A stretch of 54,755 bases of DNA from a virus. Location of the stretch: the IMG/VR virus record IMGVR_UViG_3300047550_001848, positions 1-54,755 of that record. One strand, given 5' to 3'. The notes under the pieces are model-generated. The model was given only the letters and a program-made list of their open reading frames with translations, searched no databases and was not told where the DNA came from. Made by a program: the position numbers and the translations under genes. Each line of letters opens with the position of its first letter. The first letter of the stretch is position 1. Shown piece by piece: positions 6,036 to 54,755 of this stretch.

Positions 6036-6235
6036 TGGACGCTATTGAACTGCTCCTTAGTAAGAATGCTGATGAGCGCAAACGCAAAACTGAGTTTTTA
6101 GTGGCGGGGACCGCTAAAGACTACGCAGAGTACCGACACATCTGTGGGGTTATTCGAGGTCTTGACCTTGCAGATGAACATCTCCACGACCTCGCAAAAA
6201 GGATGAATGACGATGACGGCGATGACAGCCCTTGA
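6035..6235 (+). CDS. Small unknown protein after portal
   Basis: A 66-residue protein of unknown function, starting in a TAATG overlap with the portal gene. It looks entirely helical, with a charged N-terminus (LLLSKNADERKRKTEFL) and a run of Asp at the C-terminus. It overlaps the next gene by 29 bases. Its short length, position and coupling suggest a head assembly accessory protein, but no motif supports a specific role. Confidence 0.75.
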   Translation: MDAIELLLSKNADERKRKTEFLVAGTAKDYAEYRHICGVIRGLDLADEHLHDLAKRMNDDDGDDSP

Positions 6236-6608
6236 GCAGAAATGGGCGCAGGAGGAAGTTGAAGCAGCAGAAAAGGCGAAGCAATTGCCTGATCCAGCGG
6301 GGTATCACATTCTATGTGCTGTGCCCGAGATAGAACGCAAGTACGAAAGCGGACTAATTAAGGCGGATACCACCGTGCATTATGAGGAAATCCTCACCAC
6401 GGTATTGTTCGTCATAAAACTCGGCCCAGACGCATATAAAGACACTGCTAAATTCCCTACAGGTCCGTGGTGTAAAGAAGGCGATTTCATTATCGTCCGA
6501 TCCAATTCGGGTACTCGATTGGATATCCATGGCAAGGAATTCCGGATCATCAATGATGATACGGTGGAAGCAGTTGTTCAAGATCCGCGGGGAATCAGGA
6601 GAAAATAA
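6207..6608 (+). CDS. GroES-like (Cpn10-fold) protein
   Basis: A 133-residue protein whose C-terminal half has GroES-like beta-barrel sequence: KEGDFIIVRSNSGTRLDIHG (about 90-109), then KEFRIINDDTVEAVV and DPRGIRRK. The 'GD-V-V...-G----G--Y-I' pattern is that of the chaperonin-10 fold. Phage GroES homologues such as T4 gp31 help the host GroEL fold the capsid protein, and the location between portal and capsid genes fits. The start at 6207 is supported by AAAAGGA 4 bases upstream; in-frame ATGs at 6213 and 6222 are alternatives. The GroES mobile loop is not obvious, so a structural protein using the same fold is possible. Confidence 0.65.
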   Translation: MTMTAMTALEQKWAQEEVEAAEKAKQLPDPAGYHILCAVPEIERKYESGLIKADTTVHYEEILTTVLFVIKLGPDAYKDTAKFPTGPWCKEGDFIIVRSNSGTRLDIHGKEFRIINDDTVEAVVQDPRGIRRK

Positions 6609-32413: not shown

Positions 32414-35400
32414 ATGCCTCTTATCGACATCCCGACCGTAGGACTTGTCGAATTTCCGGATTCTATGAGTTCGCAGGATATCGAAAAAGCAATACGCGAA
32501 AATATCCTAAAGCCAAAAACCACCCCCGCAGGCTATGTCCGCGAAGCTCTCAAAGGGGTACCTCGGGGGCTTGTTGGGGGGCTAGAGCAGGCAGGCTTAG
32601 GTCTTGCTGCGTTGCTCCCAGAGGAAACGGAAAAAACCGCGCGGGGGAAGATTAAGTCTATTGCGGAAAGCCTGAAGCCGTCTGTAGCCCCCGGGTACGA
32701 AGAGGCGATTCCGACCAAGCTTGGGGAGGCGGTAGGTTCTGTAGGCTCATTCCTTATTCCCGGCCTCGGGGCGGGCCGCGTAGCGGGTATGCTGGGCGCG
32801 GGAGTTGCGGGTGCTAGGGCAGCGCAGCTTGGGACAGCGGGGGTGCTTGCTCCTGCGGCGGGAGCGGGCGAAGCCCGTGAAAAGGCAATCACAGAAGGAG
32901 CTACCCCAGAGCAAATTCGGACGGCGACACAGCTTGGCTCACTTATCGGGTTGACTGAGCTTGCCCCCATCGAGCGCATGTTCCGGGGGCTGGGTAAAGA
33001 AGTCACTGGAGGACTTATCGGGCGCGTAAAGAACGCTCTTGTCACAGGCGGGTTTGAGGGTGCTCAAGAAGCGGCTGCACAGATTGCTCAAAACCTTGTT
33101 GCTCAGCGAATATACAAACCAAGCCAAGAACTCCTAGAGAGCGCGGGGGAATCCGGCGCGTACGGTGCGGGGGCGGGTGCGATCGTACAGTTTCTTCTCG
33201 ACGCGGCTGCGGGTCGCCGCGCGCCCCGTGCTGCCCCTACTCAACCTCTTGAAGCTGCACCCACTCAACCGATCCCCACGACGGCACAGCAACCTTTCTT
33301 TACGCCCGAGCAAGCACCCATTCCTACTGCGCCGCAAGCGGCCCCTCGTGCTTATACCCCCTCGGGGCAGTTGCTTACTGGTGAGCGCCTCGCGCCTGAA
33401 ACTCCGTCAGAGGATCTCACGGCGGATCTCGAAAGTGCAGTGAATGTCCTTGGGGTCGCAGAGCGGGAAGTAGAGCGAGTAAAGACGCAGATTTCCCAGA
33501 CCCGAGATCCTAACGAACGGGTGCGACTGTTCGAAGCCTTGGAACCCCTAGAAGCACGTCGGAAGGCGGCGCAGCAACAAGTTAATACATTGCGTAAACA
33601 AGCGGGGGTACCCACACCTACTGTAGCCCCGGGGCAAGGCGAGTTTGCGTTTGGGGAAGAAGGGCCAGAAATTCCCGAATTTGTAATCACTGACCGCACT
33701 TTACGTGGGCTGGGGTTCAAGGCAGATAGTACGCGAAAAGCAATCCTGAGAAAGCTGCGGGGTGTGGATGTTTCTACCCCTGAAGGATACGCCGCTTTTG
33801 AGGAGCTATTGACTGAACGGGACCGTAAAAAACAATCAATTGGGGGCTCAGAGGTTATAGATTTCATGACCCGCGCCCGCCGCCAGCTTCCCCCCGTCGA
33901 ACCCGCTGTTGCACCCCCCGAGGCTCCCGCAGTAAGCGCACCGTCTTTGCCACTCCAACCGACGGAAGGTCCGCGCGGAAAGATCGTAGAACCTACGATC
34001 ATTGGGGGATCCGTCGCGGCACCCACACCTTCTCCAGAGGTGGAACTCGACTTTATTCGGCAACGCTACGAAGCGGGGCTGCCGCTTACCCCTGCGGAGC
34101 AATATCGCCTCCGGGAAGCACAGAAAGCCGCGCCTACCCCTGAACTTGCCCTACCCGAACAACCCACCCCGCAGTCCTTGGAGGTAATCGAGAACCTCCC
34201 GCGCCAAACGCCCCCGCTGCAACTAACTAAAACCCAGATCCCGCAGCCGATAGAACCTACGTACCCTTCTGCGCCAATGCCTGCGTTCGTCGATGAGAAA
34301 AGCCTTGAAGCGATGGGGATAGCGAAGCGTAAGGACAAGGCAGCGGTTGCATTACGTGATACGTTGCTTGCCAAGGATCTAAACGATCCGGCGGATGCAG
34401 ATGCTGTTCGCACGGCGCTTCGTGCGTATCGTGACCGTGGGACTACGCTAAAAACCACCCGGGAAAAGATCGACAACTACCTGCGTTCTATCCCTGAACA
34501 GAGGGGGTTTGACTTTGAACGAGTTGATTCTACTGACGGACAAGTTGGTGAGCCAAGCGTGGGCGTGCCTGTACCACAACGAACCCCCGGAAGATCCCGT
34601 GCTCCTCAACCTCGACGAACCAACGTGGATGTATCTAGCGAAGCTCCTGAGCCAAGTACTCAAAGAGCGCAACCAGAGCCGAGTGCATTGACTCCGGTCG
34701 CCGCGTGGAAACAATACGCCCCTGAAGGCGCGAAGTATTCGCAGCTTAGCCCTGAAGAGCGGAATATATGGAAACGCGAGGTGGAAGGTAAGGCTTCGCT
34801 GGAAGAGCTTACGGAGCTAGCTAAAGCCCTTACAGAATTTCAGGCGAGTAGAAGGTTAGGAGAAGATCCAGATCTCGACGAAGCCCGGACAGTGCAGTCC
34901 GCAATCGAAGGAAAAAGTCTAGTCGATGCTGCTCGATGGTTGGCGCTGAACGCCCCTTCCAAAGACTACCAACTGATTGCAAGCCGCGTAGAAATACAAT
35001 TGCGGCGGCTAGAGGCGGCAGGGCTTAAATTTGATTTGAAGATCGCGCATCTAAACGATCGAGTACCCGGGGCGTTGCTTGGGGCGCGGGGGCTCGCGCA
35101 TGCAGAATATATAAAAGGCCAATTGACTGTTTGGCTAAACGGAACAGATGTCACGGGCAAAATAGGCACCTCATACGAAACACTACTGCACGAGCTTGTC
35201 CATGCAGCCACTATGTCAGCGGTGCGTGTAGGAAATACGCGGGGGGCTGCGGGCACCCCTCTCGCACAGTCAGTCAAAGATCTATACGCCGTAACAGACG
35301 CGATCATTAGGGAATTTAACCAAAGAGTTAGCGCGGATAAAACTAAACTATCAGAATTTGAACGGGCAGTATTTAGTAACCGCGTAAATGCCCTGAAAGA

Positions 35401-38341
35401 TCCGGACGAGATTCTTGCGTGGGCGCTTACAAACCGAGACGCGCAAGCATGGTTAGATACAGTCTCATACAAGAACAAATCTTTGTGGACCCGGTTTGTC
35501 GAGGCAGTTCGTACATTCCTTGGGTTGCCCGCAAAAACGGATACCGCGCTGTCCGAAGTACTCCGCATCGCGGATGAGTTGCTTGACATTCCTCCGGCGG
35601 ACATCGCCGCGCTCGCGGGGAAGATAGGGCAGACGTTACAGGTACAACAGCCTGCGGGCGAAGATATTCGTGCGCAGGTTTCCACAAACAACCCCATCCT
35701 CGATTCCTTCCTCGTACGGCGGGAGCAGGAGCTTACACGCGACGGAGATCGGCCTTGGTTCACGCAGCTTTGGGACGCCATTACCAAGTCTCCTGCCCAG
35801 TACGCCCGCAAGTTTGCGGTAGATATCGTGGACAACCAGTATGTCGCTAAACGTGAGTTAGAGAAAGCCGATCAGTGGGTACCGCGTATGCATATGGCGT
35901 TTGCTTCGCGTGCGGGGGATATCGCTGCCTCTTCGCTAATCACAGGACCGATCCAACTCACGACGTTGGGCGGGGGACGGGGGGTGCAAACCTTCGGGGT
36001 GGTCCAAGGGAAGTCCATCCGCGATGTCATGCAGTCTCTTGAAGAAGTAGCAGACCTGCTCCCACCGGGGGGTTCAAAGGGTAAGCGGTTTGCTGCGGCG
36101 TCCAAGCTGTTTGATGCTTATTCGTGGATAAAGCGGTTCAATAGTTTCACGCCCGCGATGAAGGCAAAATACACCATACCGCCTGAAATCTTTGCGGCAG
36201 GCCGCGAAGCTGATCGTCTATATGGTAGGCAATTTCGCAAAGCTCTCGACGATTGGACGACATATAAAAACGCGCTCTTGGAAGCGGCCCGGGCGGCAGG
36301 TAGGTTCAGTGATGAAGACGTGCAGGCATGGAAAGACGCCCCAGACTACGTGCCGTGGAACCGTATATTGGAGGATGCTAAGCACGGGTATCAAACCAAG
36401 TCCAGTGCGCGCACCTTCTTCTCATCGTTGAAAGCAGGCGGCGATATGAAGTCTCTCGTTGGCGGCGATATCGCGGAACGCCCCATCGGGTCCATGCTCA
36501 ACAACATGCAGTCATTGGCGTTCTGGCTCTCTACCAGCGCGGTAAAGAACCACGCCGCAAGTATTGTTGCGGATACCCTCGGGGGTAGTGCTTTTGGCGG
36601 GCGTTCGATTGCTGATCCCAATGTGCCCGGTGTAGACAAATCTCGGGTTATTGAGGTTTACGACAAAGGGGTGAAAAAGTATTACGAGCTTTCCGACCCC
36701 CTCGCAGCGGCTGCGTTCATGCCCATTGCCGAGGTGGCAGGGCCGATTCTGAAGGGGCTTAGCTCGATGACCCAACTGGTTCGCAGGGGGGTCACTCTTA
36801 TGCCGGGGTTCGTCGTGAATCAGCTTGCGCAGGATAGCTTCCGAGTCGCAACCTACAGTGGCGTAGGTCGCCCTTTCCGCGCGGGATCTCGGGTGGTTGG
36901 GAGCTTCTTAGGAGCGTTGCGCAACGACTCCCTTACTCAACGGCTTAGCCAATTCGGTCTGGAAGGGCAAGTCGATTACCTTTTTACAGGGCAATTCGGA
37001 GAAAAAACCCGTGCTGCCAAGCAGCTAGCACCCGCTGACCCCGGGCTGCGTACCGCCGCGAATAAGTTAGTCGAGAAGCTGGAGGCGTTTTCCCATGCCT
37101 CTGATATGGCGCAGCGTGAAGCTGTGTTCAAGCAGACCATGGAAGAAACCGGGGGTGACGAAGCGCTTGCCTTGTTCCGTGCTATCGAGATCATCAACTT
37201 CCAGAATCGGGGTAAATCGGGAGTCTCATCTATCCTGCGACACACCATCCCCTTCTTCAACGCTTACCTGCAAGGTCAGAACGTCGCGTACCGTGCGATG
37301 TTTCAGCAAGGAATCTCTGGGAAAGACCGTCAAGCGGCTTTGCGGCAGTTCCGTAACACTGCGCTTAAGATCGGGGCGTTCTCCATATTGTACGCAGCGC
37401 TCATGGCGGACGATGATGACTACAAGAAGATGTCCCCCAATGAGCGCATGCGGGGGTGGTTGCTGCCCGGAAGCCGTGAACAGTTGAAGCAACTTACTGG
37501 GGTGGACATCGGGCAAAACCTTATGATCCCGGTTCCGGCGGACCCTGCGGGTTTGATCACGAAGGCGCTGCCCGAATTGTTCACTACGTACTTTGCCTAC
37601 GAAGGCACCGCGTCTGAAATAGACGGACGCAAATTATTGAAAGCCATGGGGGACGGGGTGGCAAAGGCTATCTCGGCTCCGAATGTCGTGCCTCAAGCAG
37701 TCAAACCGTCGGTAGAGCTAGCGCTTAATTATTCCTTCTTCACCGGACGCGCTATCGTGGGTAAGGGGCAGGAACAGAAAGAGCCGTTTTTGCAATTCAC
37801 AGAGTCAACTTCTGAACTATCCAAAGCAATTGGGGAGTTTGCAAATATCTCCCCTATCAAACTCGACTACTTTATCCGTGGCACATTAGGAATGTTTGGT
37901 AGCACTCTTCTGCACTACGGGAGCGCTGCATATGCCTCGGCAGCGGGGGTTCAAGTTCCAGAATCTCGGTTGAGTGATAATCCCCAAGTGCGTGCGTTCC
38001 TTGCGGGTAGGGAGGGAGGTGGACAGCGTGAAGACTATTACGATCTCCGGGATCAAATTCAGCGTGTTGTACGCACGGTAAACGACCTGAAGATCTCTAA
38101 CCCCGCCAGACTTCAAACCTATTTTGAAGAGAACAAAGAACTTTACGCGCTCGGGCAAACGGGGCTGACGGGGCGGGTTGACGAGTGGGTGGAGAAATTC
38201 CGGAAACAACGGCAAATAATTCGCGGTTCTGATCTCCCCCCGGAAGTGAAACGACAACGATTGGATGAGCTTGAAAAGGCCGAGATTCAGCTATTCGCTA
38301 ACCTCAACCTTGCCACGCTACGTCGGGCTGTAAATCAGTAG
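32414..38341 (+). CDS. 1975-residue polyvalent ejection-type protein with zincin motif and LPD38-like region
   Basis: The largest protein in the window. The N-terminus (IDIPTVGLVEFPDSMSSQDI) is typical of podovirus internal virion proteins. A Gly/Ala hydrophobic stretch follows (about 110-160) and then long Pro-rich disordered linkers (to about 760). A zinc metalloprotease motif appears at 926-930: TSYETLLHELVHAATMSAV, with HELVH. Residues about 1430-1700 contain RRGVTLMPGFVVNQLAQDSF and TIPFFNAYLQGQNVAYRAMF with a hydrophobic helix (LKIGAFSILYAALMAD), a pattern I associate with the large polyvalent protein domain LPD38. It is probably packaged and injected with the DNA; the protease could act on envelope or host targets. 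The gene ends facing the leftward block. Confidence 0.75.
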   Translation: MPLIDIPTVGLVEFPDSMSSQDIEKAIRENILKPKTTPAGYVREALKGVPRGLVGGLEQAGLGLAALLPEETEKTARGKIKSIAESLKPSVAPGYEEAIPTKLGEAVGSVGSFLIPGLGAGRVAGMLGAGVAGARAAQLGTAGVLAPAAGAGEAREKAITEGATPEQIRTATQLGSLIGLTELAPIERMFRGLGKEVTGGLIGRVKNALVTGGFEGAQEAAAQIAQNLVAQRIYKPSQELLESAGESGAYGAGAGAIVQFLLDAAAGRRAPRAAPTQPLEAAPTQPIPTTAQQPFFTPEQAPIPTAPQAAPRAYTPSGQLLTGERLAPETPSEDLTADLESAVNVLGVAEREVERVKTQISQTRDPNERVRLFEALEPLEARRKAAQQQVNTLRKQAGVPTPTVAPGQGEFAFGEEGPEIPEFVITDRTLRGLGFKADSTRKAILRKLRGVDVSTPEGYAAFEELLTERDRKKQSIGGSEVIDFMTRARRQLPPVEPAVAPPEAPAVSAPSLPLQPTEGPRGKIVEPTIIGGSVAAPTPSPEVELDFIRQRYEAGLPLTPAEQYRLREAQKAAPTPELALPEQPTPQSLEVIENLPRQTPPLQLTKTQIPQPIEPTYPSAPMPAFVDEKSLEAMGIAKRKDKAAVALRDTLLAKDLNDPADADAVRTALRAYRDRGTTLKTTREKIDNYLRSIPEQRGFDFERVDSTDGQVGEPSVGVPVPQRTPGRSRAPQPRRTNVDVSSEAPEPSTQRAQPEPSALTPVAAWKQYAPEGAKYSQLSPEERNIWKREVEGKASLEELTELAKALTEFQASRRLGEDPDLDEARTVQSAIEGKSLVDAARWLALNAPSKDYQLIASRVEIQLRRLEAAGLKFDLKIAHLNDRVPGALLGARGLAHAEYIKGQLTVWLNGTDVTGKIGTSYETLLHELVHAATMSAVRVGNTRGAAGTPLAQSVKDLYAVTDAIIREFNQRVSADKTKLSEFERAVFSNRVNALKDPDEILAWALTNRDAQAWLDTVSYKNKSLWTRFVEAVRTFLGLPAKTDTALSEVLRIADELLDIPPADIAALAGKIGQTLQVQQPAGEDIRAQVSTNNPILDSFLVRREQELTRDGDRPWFTQLWDAITKSPAQYARKFAVDIVDNQYVAKRELEKADQWVPRMHMAFASRAGDIAASSLITGPIQLTTLGGGRGVQTFGVVQGKSIRDVMQSLEEVADLLPPGGSKGKRFAAASKLFDAYSWIKRFNSFTPAMKAKYTIPPEIFAAGREADRLYGRQFRKALDDWTTYKNALLEAARAAGRFSDEDVQAWKDAPDYVPWNRILEDAKHGYQTKSSARTFFSSLKAGGDMKSLVGGDIAERPIGSMLNNMQSLAFWLSTSAVKNHAASIVADTLGGSAFGGRSIADPNVPGVDKSRVIEVYDKGVKKYYELSDPLAAAAFMPIAEVAGPILKGLSSMTQLVRRGVTLMPGFVVNQLAQDSFRVATYSGVGRPFRAGSRVVGSFLGALRNDSLTQRLSQFGLEGQVDYLFTGQFGEKTRAAKQLAPADPGLRTAANKLVEKLEAFSHASDMAQREAVFKQTMEETGGDEALALFRAIEIINFQNRGKSGVSSILRHTIPFFNAYLQGQNVAYRAMFQQGISGKDRQAALRQFRNTALKIGAFSILYAALMADDDDYKKMSPNERMRGWLLPGSREQLKQLTGVDIGQNLMIPVPADPAGLITKALPELFTTYFAYEGTASEIDGRKLLKAMGDGVAKAISAPNVVPQAVKPSVELALNYSFFTGRAIVGKGQEQKEPFLQFTESTSELSKAIGEFANISPIKLDYFIRGTLGMFGSTLLHYGSAAYASAAGVQVPESRLSDNPQVRAFLAGREGGGQREDYYDLRDQIQRVVRTVNDLKISNPARLQTYFEENKELYALGQTGLTGRVDEWVEKFRKQRQIIRGSDLPPEVKRQRLDELEKAEIQLFANLNLATLRRAVNQ

Positions 38342-50998: not shown

Positions 50999-51850
50999 TT
51001 ACCACTCAAACCGACTCAGGATTGCATCGACGCTGGCCTTGATTTCTTTACGCGCGCTCTCGTCCTTGCGTAGATCTTTGGCGTCCAGACCGACCAACGT
51101 GCCCTCAAGATGCTTGCGGGCGATCTCCAACGCAGGATCATTCATTACGTTAAGCCGGGTCAACAATCCACACAAGTCGACCGCATTAGTAAGCAACGAA
51201 TCCCTGAAGATCTTGCGCTTACCTTCGTCTCCGTCAGTCAGTCGGTCACTCATGTGAGTGAGGCAGGAGTGCAACCTACCCCATAGGTCTTTCGTGACGG
51301 TACCGAGACGATCATTGTACGCTCGCTGGTACTGCTGCTCCAACTCACGGCGCACGTCATCATCAGCTTGCACCCGCCAGTCCTGCGTGCCCGGTACGGG
51401 GGAGAACGTATAACCCATGTGGAACTTATGTTGGATCTGATCCGCGACCGGATACTCACTGCGGTCGAACAACGCGCCCATCTGGAAGGCTTGCGCTGCG
51501 ATGAGCGTGGGGTACTTGTCGCAGAAGTTTTTCACTGCGTCGTTGAACTTCGCCTCCCACTCGACCAACCCTTGCTTGTACGCAAGAAAGTTAGGCAACG
51601 GAAGCAACCGCTCACCTCCATCAGACCACGGCAGCGTCTGCCGTTGGTTCCACATGCGGATTGCCTTGGACACAGCAATGACGCTTTCCAACTCGACGAC
51701 CCCGGCGAAGAGGTTTTTGTTGTAGTTACCCGCACGAGTGCGAGTGCTCTTCGCTACGTCGATCTCTTCGGATACCTGCCGATCCAGCTTGCGACCAGAC
51801 CATACCGACAACGTGATGTTCACCAACATGCTGTTATCAACGATACTCAT
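50999..51850 (-). CDS. DUF3150-type protein of the AAA/VWA cassette
   Basis: A 283-residue, mostly helical, soluble protein. The start MSIVDNSMLVNITLSVWSGR and the segment DRQVSEEIDVAKSTRTRAGN match the DUF3150 family, which I know to be encoded next to AAA and VWA genes in phages and bacteria. The middle has RLLPLPNFLAYKQGLVEWEA and the C-terminal third long charged helices. Its function is unknown; it may be the client adaptor or substrate recogniser of the AAA/VWA machine upstream. A strong ribosome site (CAAGGAGTATCGCA) precedes the ATG. Confidence 0.78.
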   Translation of the reverse strand: MSIVDNSMLVNITLSVWSGRKLDRQVSEEIDVAKSTRTRAGNYNKNLFAGVVELESVIAVSKAIRMWNQRQTLPWSDGGERLLPLPNFLAYKQGLVEWEAKFNDAVKNFCDKYPTLIAAQAFQMGALFDRSEYPVADQIQHKFHMGYTFSPVPGTQDWRVQADDDVRRELEQQYQRAYNDRLGTVTKDLWGRLHSCLTHMSDRLTDGDEGKRKIFRDSLLTNAVDLCGLLTRLNVMNDPALEIARKHLEGTLVGLDAKDLRKDESARKEIKASVDAILSRFEW

Positions 51851-51876
51851 TGCGATACTCCTTGAACGTAAATTGA

Positions 51877-52155
51877 CTAGGACTTAGCTTCTTGCGACTG
51901 TTCTGCTGCGTACAATATCTTACCTAGGGCATAGGTTTCTTCCGACAAGACACGTAGTCTAAGCGAATTGTCGTCGATGTCCATGGGCTTTACCCTTGGT
52001 TCTTGCTTCCTGCTCTCGCTGTTCCATGCTACATCATACAACTCTACCCCATTAGAAAGCGCTTTGAACAACTCCATTGCTGCGTCTGCGTCAAGGATGA
52101 AGTTATGATACCCCAATGATAGGATCATCTTCATCGGTTTTGCTACCTTCCCCAT
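51877..52155 (-). CDS. Small protein inside the AAA/VWA/DUF3150 cassette
   Basis: A 92-residue protein with a strong ribosome site (TTGGAGGTGTGAG). It has a short beta-helix start (MKMILSLGYHNFILDADAAM then ELFKALSNGVELYDVAWNSE), basic linkers, and a C-terminal helix (LSEETYALGKILYAAEQSQE). I do not recognise a family. It lies between the VWA and DUF3150 genes and is likely part of the same functional unit. Confidence 0.7.
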   Translation of the reverse strand: MGKVAKPMKMILSLGYHNFILDADAAMELFKALSNGVELYDVAWNSESRKQEPRVKPMDIDDNSLRLRVLSEETYALGKILYAAEQSQEAKS

Positions 52156-52156
52156 C

Positions 52157-53308
52157 TCACACCTCCAAATGAATTGTTTGCCCGTTACCTGCGATTATGT
52201 TCTTTGTTGTGATGCACCATAACACGGGGCACGGCCATGCCCCGCCCCACTCGCCCCCTACGTGCCCATCGGTTAGCATGATGGCGCAGTCCGGTCGCAA
52301 GCTAGTCTCACGCATGTGACGTGTCACACACTCCGGAGATGTCCCTCCACCCCCCTTGGGCTTGGTTGACTGCGCGAGCATGTCGTACTGCCCTTCGGAG
52401 TATTTCTCATGCGCTGCAACACGGGTATCCCAATACAATAGATCGACGACTTCGGGTTGGACTGTCGTAGCGATGGACGCTACCTCTGCTAGGAATGCCA
52501 CCAGCATCGCCCCGTCCACAGATCCGGACGTATCCACCCCAACCAGCACCCGACCAGCCCGTTCGTTAAAGTGCGACGGAAGATAGATGCCGTTATGTAG
52601 ATGCCTGCGGTTAGGCCGACGCCATGAGGACAAGTCCTTGCCTGCACAGATGGACATTACGAAGTCCCGCAACACTTCACGCCAGTTGATCTTCGGCGCG
52701 AGCAAGTCTCTTACAGCCCGATCTAAACCACTCTCCTCCTTACCCGCCAAGATAGAGCCCTGCTGCAACGCCTCAGTTACTTTATCTGCTAACGCCTCCT
52801 TCTCCTGCTCCGTGAGTTGCCTTGCCTTTCCCCAATCGTGGTGGTCGAACCCCTCACACCCGCCCCCATCGTTGCCATCCTCCTTCAGCTTGCGATATAC
52901 CTCACCTGCATCCATGCCTTGATACTGCAAGTCAAACGCCCCCATCGGCGGCATCTGGATGAAGTTATCCCCGTCGTCCGATAGGACAAGTAGGAGGTTA
53001 ATAACGTGGTCGCATGCAAGGTTGGCAAGCTGCGGGTTCTCTTTCCACATCCACTGCCGCGTTGTCAGATGAAGCAACGCTTTGTGCATGTTCTCGTGCA
53101 GAATAAGAAAGCGCAACTGCGCATCACTCAACCCGGCTACGAACTTCTTGCCGTAGGTGACATTTAGCCCATCGGTACACGCGGTTGGGTAGTCGTCATC
53201 CAAGGATACCTCCCCCATCATGATGACCCCACCCAGACTGCGGTACTTGGGGTGTGAAAGCAACGCAAGCGTTGCCTTCTGTATCGTTTGCTCGATTGTC
53301 AGATCCAT
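52157..53308 (-). CDS. VWA protein with N-terminal metallopeptidase-like domain (DUF2201-type)
   Basis: A 383-residue protein. The N-terminal domain has a zincin-like HENMH (71-75) in RFLILHENMHKALLHLTTRQ followed by ACDHVINLLL. The C-terminal VWA domain has a MIDAS motif DTSGS (D259-S263) in RVLVGVDTSGSV, GGGTSPECV and ML TDGHVGG. A charged Asp/Gly linker joins them. The architecture is that of VWA-like DUF2201 proteins, which pair with MoxR ATPases. With the AAA protein immediately upstream it resembles cobalamin-chelatase-type CobS/CobT or MoxR/VWA insertase machines. The client is unknown. A TGTGAC-N2-GTCACA repeat lies within its coding sequence (52315). Confidence 0.88.
   Translation of the reverse strand: MDLTIEQTIQKATLALLSHPKYRSLGGVIMMGEVSLDDDYPTACTDGLNVTYGKKFVAGLSDAQLRFLILHENMHKALLHLTTRQWMWKENPQLANLACDHVINLLLVLSDDGDNFIQMPPMGAFDLQYQGMDAGEVYRKLKEDGNDGGGCEGFDHHDWGKARQLTEQEKEALADKVTEALQQGSILAGKEESGLDRAVRDLLAPKINWREVLRDFVMSICAGKDLSSWRRPNRRHLHNGIYLPSHFNERAGRVLVGVDTSGSVDGAMLVAFLAEVASIATTVQPEVVDLLYWDTRVAAHEKYSEGQYDMLAQSTKPKGGGGTSPECVTRHMRETSLRPDCAIMLTDGHVGGEWGGAWPCPVLWCITTKNIIAGNGQTIHLEV
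52315..52328. promoter_or_regulatory. TGTGAC-GT-GTCACA inverted repeat inside the VWA gene
   Basis: A perfect inverted repeat with 6-bp arms and GT centre. It shares the 13-base string TGACGTGTCACAC with the window start and the core with 788-805. It is within coding sequence (codons for VTRHM), so coincidence is possible, but the match to three other sites argues for a functional element. Confidence 0.4.
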
Positions 53309-53309
53309 A

Positions 53310-54380
53310 TCACACCATCCAGTGATTGTCGGTAGCCCACTTCACAAAGGCACGACTGCTCAGTGCCGCTGAACGAGCGGGAGATTTAAGAACATTCAAT
53401 GCAAACACCCCCTGATATTCCTTCGGGAGTCGCTCACAGTACGTCATCCACGGAGTCATGGTTTTCTGCGATACAAGAGAAATGGCGCTGAAAACCGAGA
53501 CGAAGTTAGCCGCGAAGTCGGTGTGCCCCGGCACCTGTGCCGTGTCAGGCGAAGCAACAATAGCTTCCCACGAGGGTAGCCGGTCGTAAGTCTCCGCGAA
53601 GGTCATGATGTCGTTCGCTGCGGATACACCTACACAACCTGCAAGAGCTACGCGCGCTGCATTCGGGGTAAGGTTTGTGCGTTGGTGCATGATGAAGCTC
53701 GACTTGTGCAGGCTACGTGGGGTGACGCACGCGGCTATTGGTTTATTCGGATAGTTGATGTAGGGGTTACCATCACCATCCTTGTACGATGCAAGGCAAC
53801 GCGGGAACCGCTTGACCCATGCAATAATGACTGGGTGGATGCCGTTATCCATAGCCCACACGATCCACTCTTCGGCATTAGGCTTTCGAATCTCACACAC
53901 AGAGCCACGATTGCGGAACTGACTTTGCACATGATCCCCCAACCCCTCGGCTGCTAGGTTTGACGTAGCAAACACCCGACTACCTGCGGGTAACGCATAC
54001 TCCCCGATCCGCTTCTCGTGAAACAACCGCATGAATGAATTCTGCGTCATGCGGGGTGCCTTGCCGATCTCGTCGATCATGAACAGCACGGGCTTATGCT
54101 CATGGATGTTCAACAAGAAGTTAGGTGCAAACCGGGTCACCTTGATGCCGTTGATGTCCTCAACGAACGGCACCCCAACAAGATCCGACGTATCGAACGT
54201 CGGTGCGTCTGCGTACATACACTGATACCCGGGCATGCGCTTGCCCAACTCATAGAGCATATGCGACTTACCTATACCCATCTCGCCAAGAAAAAGATAC
54301 GACACATCATCCCCGGTGTACTGCACAAGATCGGTTGCTTCTGCCAAAGATACAACGTGGGTGGGTTTGATATCACTCAT
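53310..54380 (-). CDS. MoxR/CobS-like AAA+ ATPase
   Basis: A 356-residue AAA+ protein. Walker A is GEMGIGKS (32-39), Walker B VLFMIDE (98-104), sensor 1 ATSN (138-141) and an arginine-finger-like QFRNR (154-158). The pattern, with FDTSDLVGVPF and IGEYALPAGSRVFATSN, is that of the MoxR/CobS branch, which remodels protein complexes with VWA partners. Starting with AAAGGAGTGATAGC-ATG, it is directly followed by the VWA gene (1 base gap). It is downstream of the GN-repeat genes in the same operon. Target proteins are unknown; takeover of a host complex or virion assembly are options. Confidence 0.9.
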   Translation of the reverse strand: MSDIKPTHVVSLAEATDLVQYTGDDVSYLFLGEMGIGKSHMLYELGKRMPGYQCMYADAPTFDTSDLVGVPFVEDINGIKVTRFAPNFLLNIHEHKPVLFMIDEIGKAPRMTQNSFMRLFHEKRIGEYALPAGSRVFATSNLAAEGLGDHVQSQFRNRGSVCEIRKPNAEEWIVWAMDNGIHPVIIAWVKRFPRCLASYKDGDGNPYINYPNKPIAACVTPRSLHKSSFIMHQRTNLTPNAARVALAGCVGVSAANDIMTFAETYDRLPSWEAIVASPDTAQVPGHTDFAANFVSVFSAISLVSQKTMTPWMTYCERLPKEYQGVFALNVLKSPARSAALSSRAFVKWATDNHWMV

Positions 54381-54392
54381 GCTATCACTCCT

Positions 54393-54688
<296 letters not shown>

Positions 54689-54692
<4 letters not shown>

Positions 54693-54754
54693 GACGCTCC
54701 CTCGTACTTAGTTACAACACGTATCCACAAGTCGACTTCGGCAAGGGCGTAGCT
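54689..54754 (-). CDS. 3' end of a second GN-repeat-type gene, cut by the window edge
   Basis: Only the last 21 codons are visible: SYALAEVDLWIRVVTKYEGA then S and TGA. The first 17 residues match the tail of the neighbouring gene exactly at DNA level; only the end differs (EGAS instead of FPPTCK). Its TGA overlaps the GTG start of the next gene (GTGA at 54689-54692). It is therefore probably an upstream tandem paralogue whose repeat part lies beyond the window. Confidence 0.65.
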
Positions 54755-54755
54755 C
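54705..54755. repeat. 51-bp direct repeat, copy 2, at the window edge
   Basis: Identical to 54415-54465 right up to the last base of the window, so the true extent of the repeat is unknown. The window ending inside a repeat suggests an assembly break in a tandem array. Confidence 0.95.

Follow-up and report, generated by a model that had tools for sequence, protein, structure and literature searches.

A gene trio encoding an AAA+ ATPase, a VWA-metallopeptidase and a DUF3150 protein in phages and on plasmids

Related AAA+ and VWA systems

Pairs of genes encoding a MoxR-type AAA+ ATPase and a VWA protein have been described in several settings, and we compare these here with a locus at the right end of a 54,755-base linear IMG/VR virus record, IMGVR_UViG_3300047550_001848 (the window, i.e., the whole stretch of DNA analyzed). 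At 50999-54380, on the minus strand, open reading frame (ORF) calling gave four tightly packed genes, at exactly the coordinates named in an earlier sequence-only reading. Three of them, encoding an AAA+ ATPase, a metallopeptidase-VWA protein and a DUF3150-related protein, form a secure module whose linkage is far beyond chance. The term "DUF3150" was not found in the literature searched, and no function was on record for the cassette.

Coliphage N4 gp24 (AAA+) and gp25 (VWA) resemble the pair in the window (profile matches of 1.8e-55 and 1.3e-59), and their genes are likewise adjacent and on one strand. They are middle genes, and in some analyses core genes, of N4-like phages. However, N4 belongs to an unrelated phage family and has no DUF3150 anywhere, and we found no characterized function for its pair. 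Jumbo phages of group 2.2 also encode a MoxR AAA+ protein together with a protein of the same two-domain metallopeptidase-vWA architecture. These were described as a MoxR chaperone and a vWA co-chaperone carrying a fused metallopeptidase, with a proposed role in virion assembly but with no third component (PMC7824862). Other AAA-VWA pairs of phages have been read as CobST (PMC8651126).

In denitrifiers, NorQ and NorD are a MoxR-class AAA protein and a VWA protein bearing a metal ion-dependent adhesion site (MIDAS) (PMC13036017, PMC9976466), and NorD was among the weak fold matches of the VWA protein model from the window. NorD inserts a finger into the pore of NorQ, and it has been proposed that this finger is twisted at the expense of ATP (PMC13036017). 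No metallopeptidase domain is described for NorD, the system has no DUF3150, and its client is nitric oxide reductase; we use it as a model of mechanism, not as a claim of membership. The MoxR-vWA ternary conflict systems also add a dedicated third protein to a MoxR-vWA pair (PMC7159879). Those systems are host-encoded and their third protein is VMAP, iSTAND, FtsH or a beta-propeller, whereas the genes studied here lie on mobile elements and the third protein is DUF3150; none of those four types had a match among the four window proteins. Finally, loci of Planctomycetota and Manganitrophus that combine a CDC48-clade AAA gene with DUF1257 and DUF3150 resemble the window in having a DUF3150 homologue beside an AAA+ gene, but the AAA protein is of another clade (PF00004) and no VWA protein was found with it. 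The description of the cassette as a little-described system thus needs dividing: it stands for the trio with DUF3150, which has no recorded function, but not for the AAA-VWA pair, already described in N4-like and jumbo phages.

Linkage and properties of the three core proteins

DUF3150 loci were collected by searching IMG/VR with a four-protein profile, which gave 152 relatives, of which 80 were kept. A locus was counted as informative if it was seeded on DUF3150 and was flanked by 4 kb or more in each direction (n = 44). The AAA, VWA and DUF3150 genes were present on one strand in all 44 of these; the eight incomplete DUF3150 loci were each cut by a contig end. Gene order varied, being DUF-AAA-VWA in 38 loci, AAA-VWA-DUF in 34 and AAA-DUF-VWA in cyanophage MinM2, and the DUF3150 tree requires at least two changes of order. 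That the genes stay adjacent although their order changes is a good indication that they function together. What is new here is that DUF3150 is the constant third partner of the AAA-VWA pair in one large phage group. One search found matches to the VWA gene in 708 phage records.

The sequence-only reading had proposed a cassette of four genes. Its AAA, VWA and DUF3150 members stand, but the remaining 92-residue protein is accessory. This protein had no family match in profile searches, and homologues in the same slot were clear only in the two nearest relatives, L093 (3.6e-22) and L043 (7.4e-16), and doubtful in L086-L088. In most loci its slot is either empty or taken by small ORFs unrelated to it, and we therefore rejected the four-gene unit. 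A 90-residue protein between AAA and DUF3150 in MinM2 showed, on reading, no resemblance to it. The features of the locus, with the evidence for each, are as follows.

53310-54380, minus strand: AAA+ ATPase of the AAA_5/MoxR-midasin branch, 356 residues, core gene 1 (ORF, phrog_1297, AAA_5 matches of relatives)
54264-54287, minus strand: Walker A motif GEMGIGKS, residues 32-39 (read from the sequence; G32, G37 and K38 invariant in a 40-sequence alignment)
54069-54086, minus strand: Walker B motif LFMIDE, residues 99-104 (40-sequence alignment)
52157-53308, minus strand: metallopeptidase-VWA protein with DUF2201_N and DUF2201 domains, 383 residues, core gene 2 (PF13203, PF09967, model)
53084-53098, minus strand: HExxH motif HENMH, residues 71-75 (41-member alignment)
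52520-52534, minus strand: MIDAS motif DTSGS, residues 259-263, with T323 and D347 as the remaining residues of the site (41-member alignment)
51877-52155, minus strand: 92-residue protein, accessory (same-slot homologues in few loci)
50999-51850, minus strand: DUF3150-related protein, 283 residues, core gene 3 (PF11348 matches of relatives, fold match)

The AAA protein matched phrog_1297 (7e-46) and scored 19.5 bits against Pfam AAA_5, just below the 22-bit cut-off. Among 40 aligned relatives, 36 matched AAA_5 (best 7.8e-11), 13 matched AAA_3 and 15 gave weak matches to bpMoxR (best 3.4e-5). Profile matches in the PDB were headed by midasin, followed by Clp, sigma-54 activators, the MoxR-like 2r44 and NorQ (9qhd). 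Invariant across the 40 members were K38, D103, E104, the sensor-1 residue N141 and R158, a candidate arginine finger. Partnership of this MoxR-class gene with the VWA gene is close, the two being 1 nucleotide apart in the window and linked in every informative locus. An assignment to the MoxR/CobS branch was supported in its MoxR part, and its CobST part was not, there being no CobS or CobT match.

The VWA protein matched PF13203 (4.5e-26) and PF09967 (1.9e-14), both above the Pfam cut-off, and the two domains, DUF2201_N and DUF2201, were present in all 41 aligned members. Its HENMH and MIDAS motifs, already noticed from the sequence, are both intact, with key residues invariant in the 41 members: H71, E72 and H75 for the former, and D259, S261, S263, T323 and D347 for the latter. 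N96 and D100 were invariant too, and H80 was conserved in at least 90%. Because the AAA catalytic residues are invariant as well, neither protein looks degenerate. The AlphaFold2 model (predicted local distance difference test, pLDDT, 85.6) has a clear VWA fold at residues 250-383, with Z reaching 12.2 over residues 250-381. Our reading of the protein as a putative peptidase rests on the invariant active-site residues. PHROGs (phrog_1314) and many phage records, H63, H69 and H109 among them, give this family the label "HNH endonuclease". We rejected that label, since Pfam gives DUF2201 domains and no HNH domain for the window protein and its aligned relatives.

The DUF3150-like protein of the window scored 15.2 bits against PF11348, below the cut-off of 24.9, and 43 of 47 aligned members matched this family (best 5.9e-7); the label therefore belongs to the family rather than to the window protein alone, and as such it holds. 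Its AlphaFold2 model (pLDDT 79.6, predicted template modelling score 0.58) has short strands and two predicted helices of 41-43 residues, and its best viral fold match was a phage protein named DUF3150 (1.2e-15). Against the PDB there was no match under E 0.5, with generic four-helix-bundle similarity only, at residues 166-283. We make no claim of a new fold, because the fold outside those residues was barely tested.

The AAA and VWA genes, and the VWA and 92-residue genes, are each separated by 1 nucleotide, and the 92-residue and DUF3150-like genes by 26; Shine-Dalgarno-like sequences precede the AAA, 92-residue and DUF3150-like genes. The cassette opens a gene block that runs to a DNA polymerase, an exonuclease and a helicase and is divergent from the terminase and portal genes. 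Of the early-operon placement suggested earlier, the position is supported, the cassette standing first among the replication-strand genes. Downstream lie a VRR-NUC/Hjc-like gene, a DUF3310 gene, small ORFs, a DHH phosphoesterase gene and the family A DNA polymerase gene. The cassette was divergent from the terminase in 55 loci and upstream of the DNA polymerase in 51.

On the other side of the cassette, an ORF of alternating glycines (GNGYGDG...; 54393-54692, minus strand) arises from a hexamer array at 54472-54677 and stops 12 nucleotides before the AAA start. Comparable ORFs adjoin the cassette in L043, L093, L089 and L090, with tandem copies in L089 overlapping by 4 nucleotides. Because repeats of hexamers of this kind are frequent among viral contigs, the glycine repeat was rejected as a marker of the cassette. 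An exact 51-nucleotide repeat occurs at 54705-54755 and 54415-54465; since the first copy forms the right end of the window, the record probably ends within a tandem repeat.

The trio on plasmids and DUF3150 with a second ATPase clade

The VWA protein matched 61 plasmid records. A plasmid DUF3150 query matched 42, of which all but one, a Manganitrophus record, were also in the VWA list, co-occurrence being judged by accession and coordinates; in intact cases the VWA match lay directly downstream of DUF3150. The trio was found on plasmids of Burkholderiaceae and Acetobacteraceae, some of them conjugative. Three annotated loci, on Burkholderia vietnamiensis pBVIE02, B. ambifaria pBMC401 and a Rhodovastum plasmid, have the order AAA-DUF3150-VWA, and both pBVIE02 and pBMC401 are typed as conjugative. 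When the nine proteins of these three loci were compared with the phage profiles, all matched, at 1e-55 to 2e-66 for DUF3150, 1e-60 to 1e-68 for VWA and 1e-47 to 1e-59 for AAA. Thus, the same trio occurs on plasmids as well as in phages, a new observation, and the cassette is not phage-specific. On pBMC401 and pBVIE02 the trio has PRTRC/ThiF-type genes on one side and a type IV secretion operon on the other.

A further new observation is that DUF3150 accompanies an unrelated, CDC48-clade ATPase in Planctomycetota, on the Manganitrophus plasmid and in phage Tunturi_3. In Planctomycetota a DUF3150 relative lies beside, and usually directly after, a CDC48-clade AAA gene (PF00004), with no VWA protein within the flanking stretch examined and with a DUF1257 protein nearby where the flank was present. 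The Manganitrophus plasmid carries AAA, DUF1257, DUF2997 and DUF3150 genes, the AAA again being of the CDC48 clade. In Tunturi_3, a CDC48-type AAA (27% identity to the planctomycete AAA, 2e-38) lies a few genes from DUF3150. The window AAA gave only a short, weak match (E 0.006) to that AAA. Because one family accompanies two AAA clades, it is plausible, judging from gene position, that DUF3150 acts as an AAA partner.

Several planctomycete genomes have multiple DUF3150 copies. At the planctomycete loci L102, L103, L109-L112 and L115 the DUF3150-AAA genes are followed by one for a conserved protein, of 480-520 residues where complete, with no Pfam match. The DUF3150 protein of Tunturi_3 is also labelled "HNH endonuclease".

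Possible functions of the trio

With a confidence slightly better than even, we read the trio as one ATP-driven remodelling complex with a built-in metallopeptidase, which mobile elements, here this phage group and several families of plasmids, would turn on a client outside the virion while they establish themselves or replicate in the host. By family, the AAA protein would form a hexameric ring. The VWA domain might dock on it, perhaps through a finger in the pore by analogy with NorD on NorQ, and its MIDAS metal site, whose residues are invariant, may grip an acidic residue of the client. DUF3150, given its constant linkage, could be a dedicated adaptor or regulator presenting the client to the motor. 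ATP-driven movement would then remodel the client and the HExxH domain, its active-site residues invariant, would cut it. A bolder proposal, which we put forward tentatively, is that this is an undescribed three-subunit AAA+ remodelling peptidase of phages and plasmids for element establishment, DUF3150 being a modular client adaptor coupled to two unrelated motors, i.e., MoxR with VWA-peptidase and CDC48-clade AAA with DUF1257.

Evidence on virion assembly comes in part from sister phages. The nearest by terminase are DSL-LC04 and the pelagiphages HTVC027P and HTVC023P. Identity to the window is 65% (HTVC023P) and 63% (DSL-LC04) for the capsid, 39% and 38% for the portal, and 45% and 49% for the terminase. 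In whole-record searches of HTVC023P and DSL-LC04 there was no AAA, VWA or DUF3150 match. A GroES-like co-chaperonin gene lies in the head block of the window (6207-6608, plus strand) and also in DSL-LC04 (6.8e-26) and HTVC023P (3e-20). Substitution of the cassette for GroES was rejected, the window having retained this gene. Because near relatives with homologous heads lack the trio, and plasmids, which build no virions, carry it, a role in virion assembly is argued against; these two comparisons favor a non-virion role and lend support to the doubt about assembly expressed in the sequence-only reading. Host takeover, also suggested there, is possible.

Several points weigh against the remodelling-complex reading. 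Gene linkage is no proof of a physical complex, and VWA-AAA pairs without DUF3150 occur too (N4, Possum, phi30-2). Distance correlation within the trio (0.76-0.86) was equalled by that of TerS (0.76-0.86), and it was rejected as evidence of interaction, not being specific. The metallopeptidase label comes from HExxH and Pfam, the fold comparison having barely covered the N-terminal half, and the sister-phage virion comparison covered the capsid, portal and GroES-like proteins.

Among the alternatives, the complex might load or clear the element's own replication or DNA-processing complex rather than act on a host protein. Synteny with the VRR-NUC nuclease, DNA polymerase A, exonuclease and helicase genes is consistent with this, as is the setting of the plasmid copies, with PRTRC genes on one side and the type IV secretion operon on the other. 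However, HTVC023P has a similar replication block (polymerase, helicase, endonuclease) and manages without the trio, and we consider this explanation unlikely. We give a similarly low rating to counter-defence, in which, once entry has taken place, the complex would dismantle or degrade a host protein of defence or silencing. Phages and conjugative plasmids, which must both contend with host defences, share the trio, and it is missing from some close relatives, as is often the case for accessory counter-defence genes; the phage also encodes, at 32414-38341 on the plus strand, a 1975-residue protein that carries, close to the C-terminus, the LPD38 domain of large polyvalent proteins. Set against this, no target is known, the high conservation of the trio over many phages suggests a general client, and PADLOC gave weak AAA similarity only, a poor test because its library is one of defence proteins.

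Virion assembly, with the trio as chaperone and maturation peptidase, is the role proposed for the homologous jumbo-phage pair (PMC7824862), and p618 and p892 of Acidianus two-tailed virus offer an analogy. Both the VWA protein p892 and virion proteins are bound by p618 (PMC4124505), and roseophage RPP1 encodes some virion proteins near its gp24/gp25 homologues (PMC4193335). This role nevertheless appears distinctly unlikely here: besides the plasmid copies and the trio-free sisters with their 63-65% identical capsids, the cassette heads the replication-strand block, on the strand opposite to the head genes, and the GroES-like gene is kept in window and sisters alike. For archaeal tailed viruses and cyanophages, a CobST-like pair of cobaltochelatase subunits has been proposed to boost cobalamin supply by way of the host's CobN, and AAA-VWA pairs of phages have been annotated as CobS/CobT (PMC8651126; PMC9503304). 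This reading, which we rejected, is very improbable here: neither the window proteins (Pfam, NCBIfam) nor the VWA relatives match CobS or CobT, the VWA protein is DUF2201 in all 41 aligned members, HExxH is invariant, and this model has no place for DUF3150.

For AAA-VWA pairs of the N4 type, both assembly and vitamin B12 supply had been suggested before. Now that the pair is seen to accompany DUF3150 in phages and plasmids alike, the question shifts from the building of virions to what incoming elements share. The plasmid copies provide a tractable test system for the trio, and the DUF3150 family gains a concrete working hypothesis, i.e., that its members may be partners of AAA+ motors.

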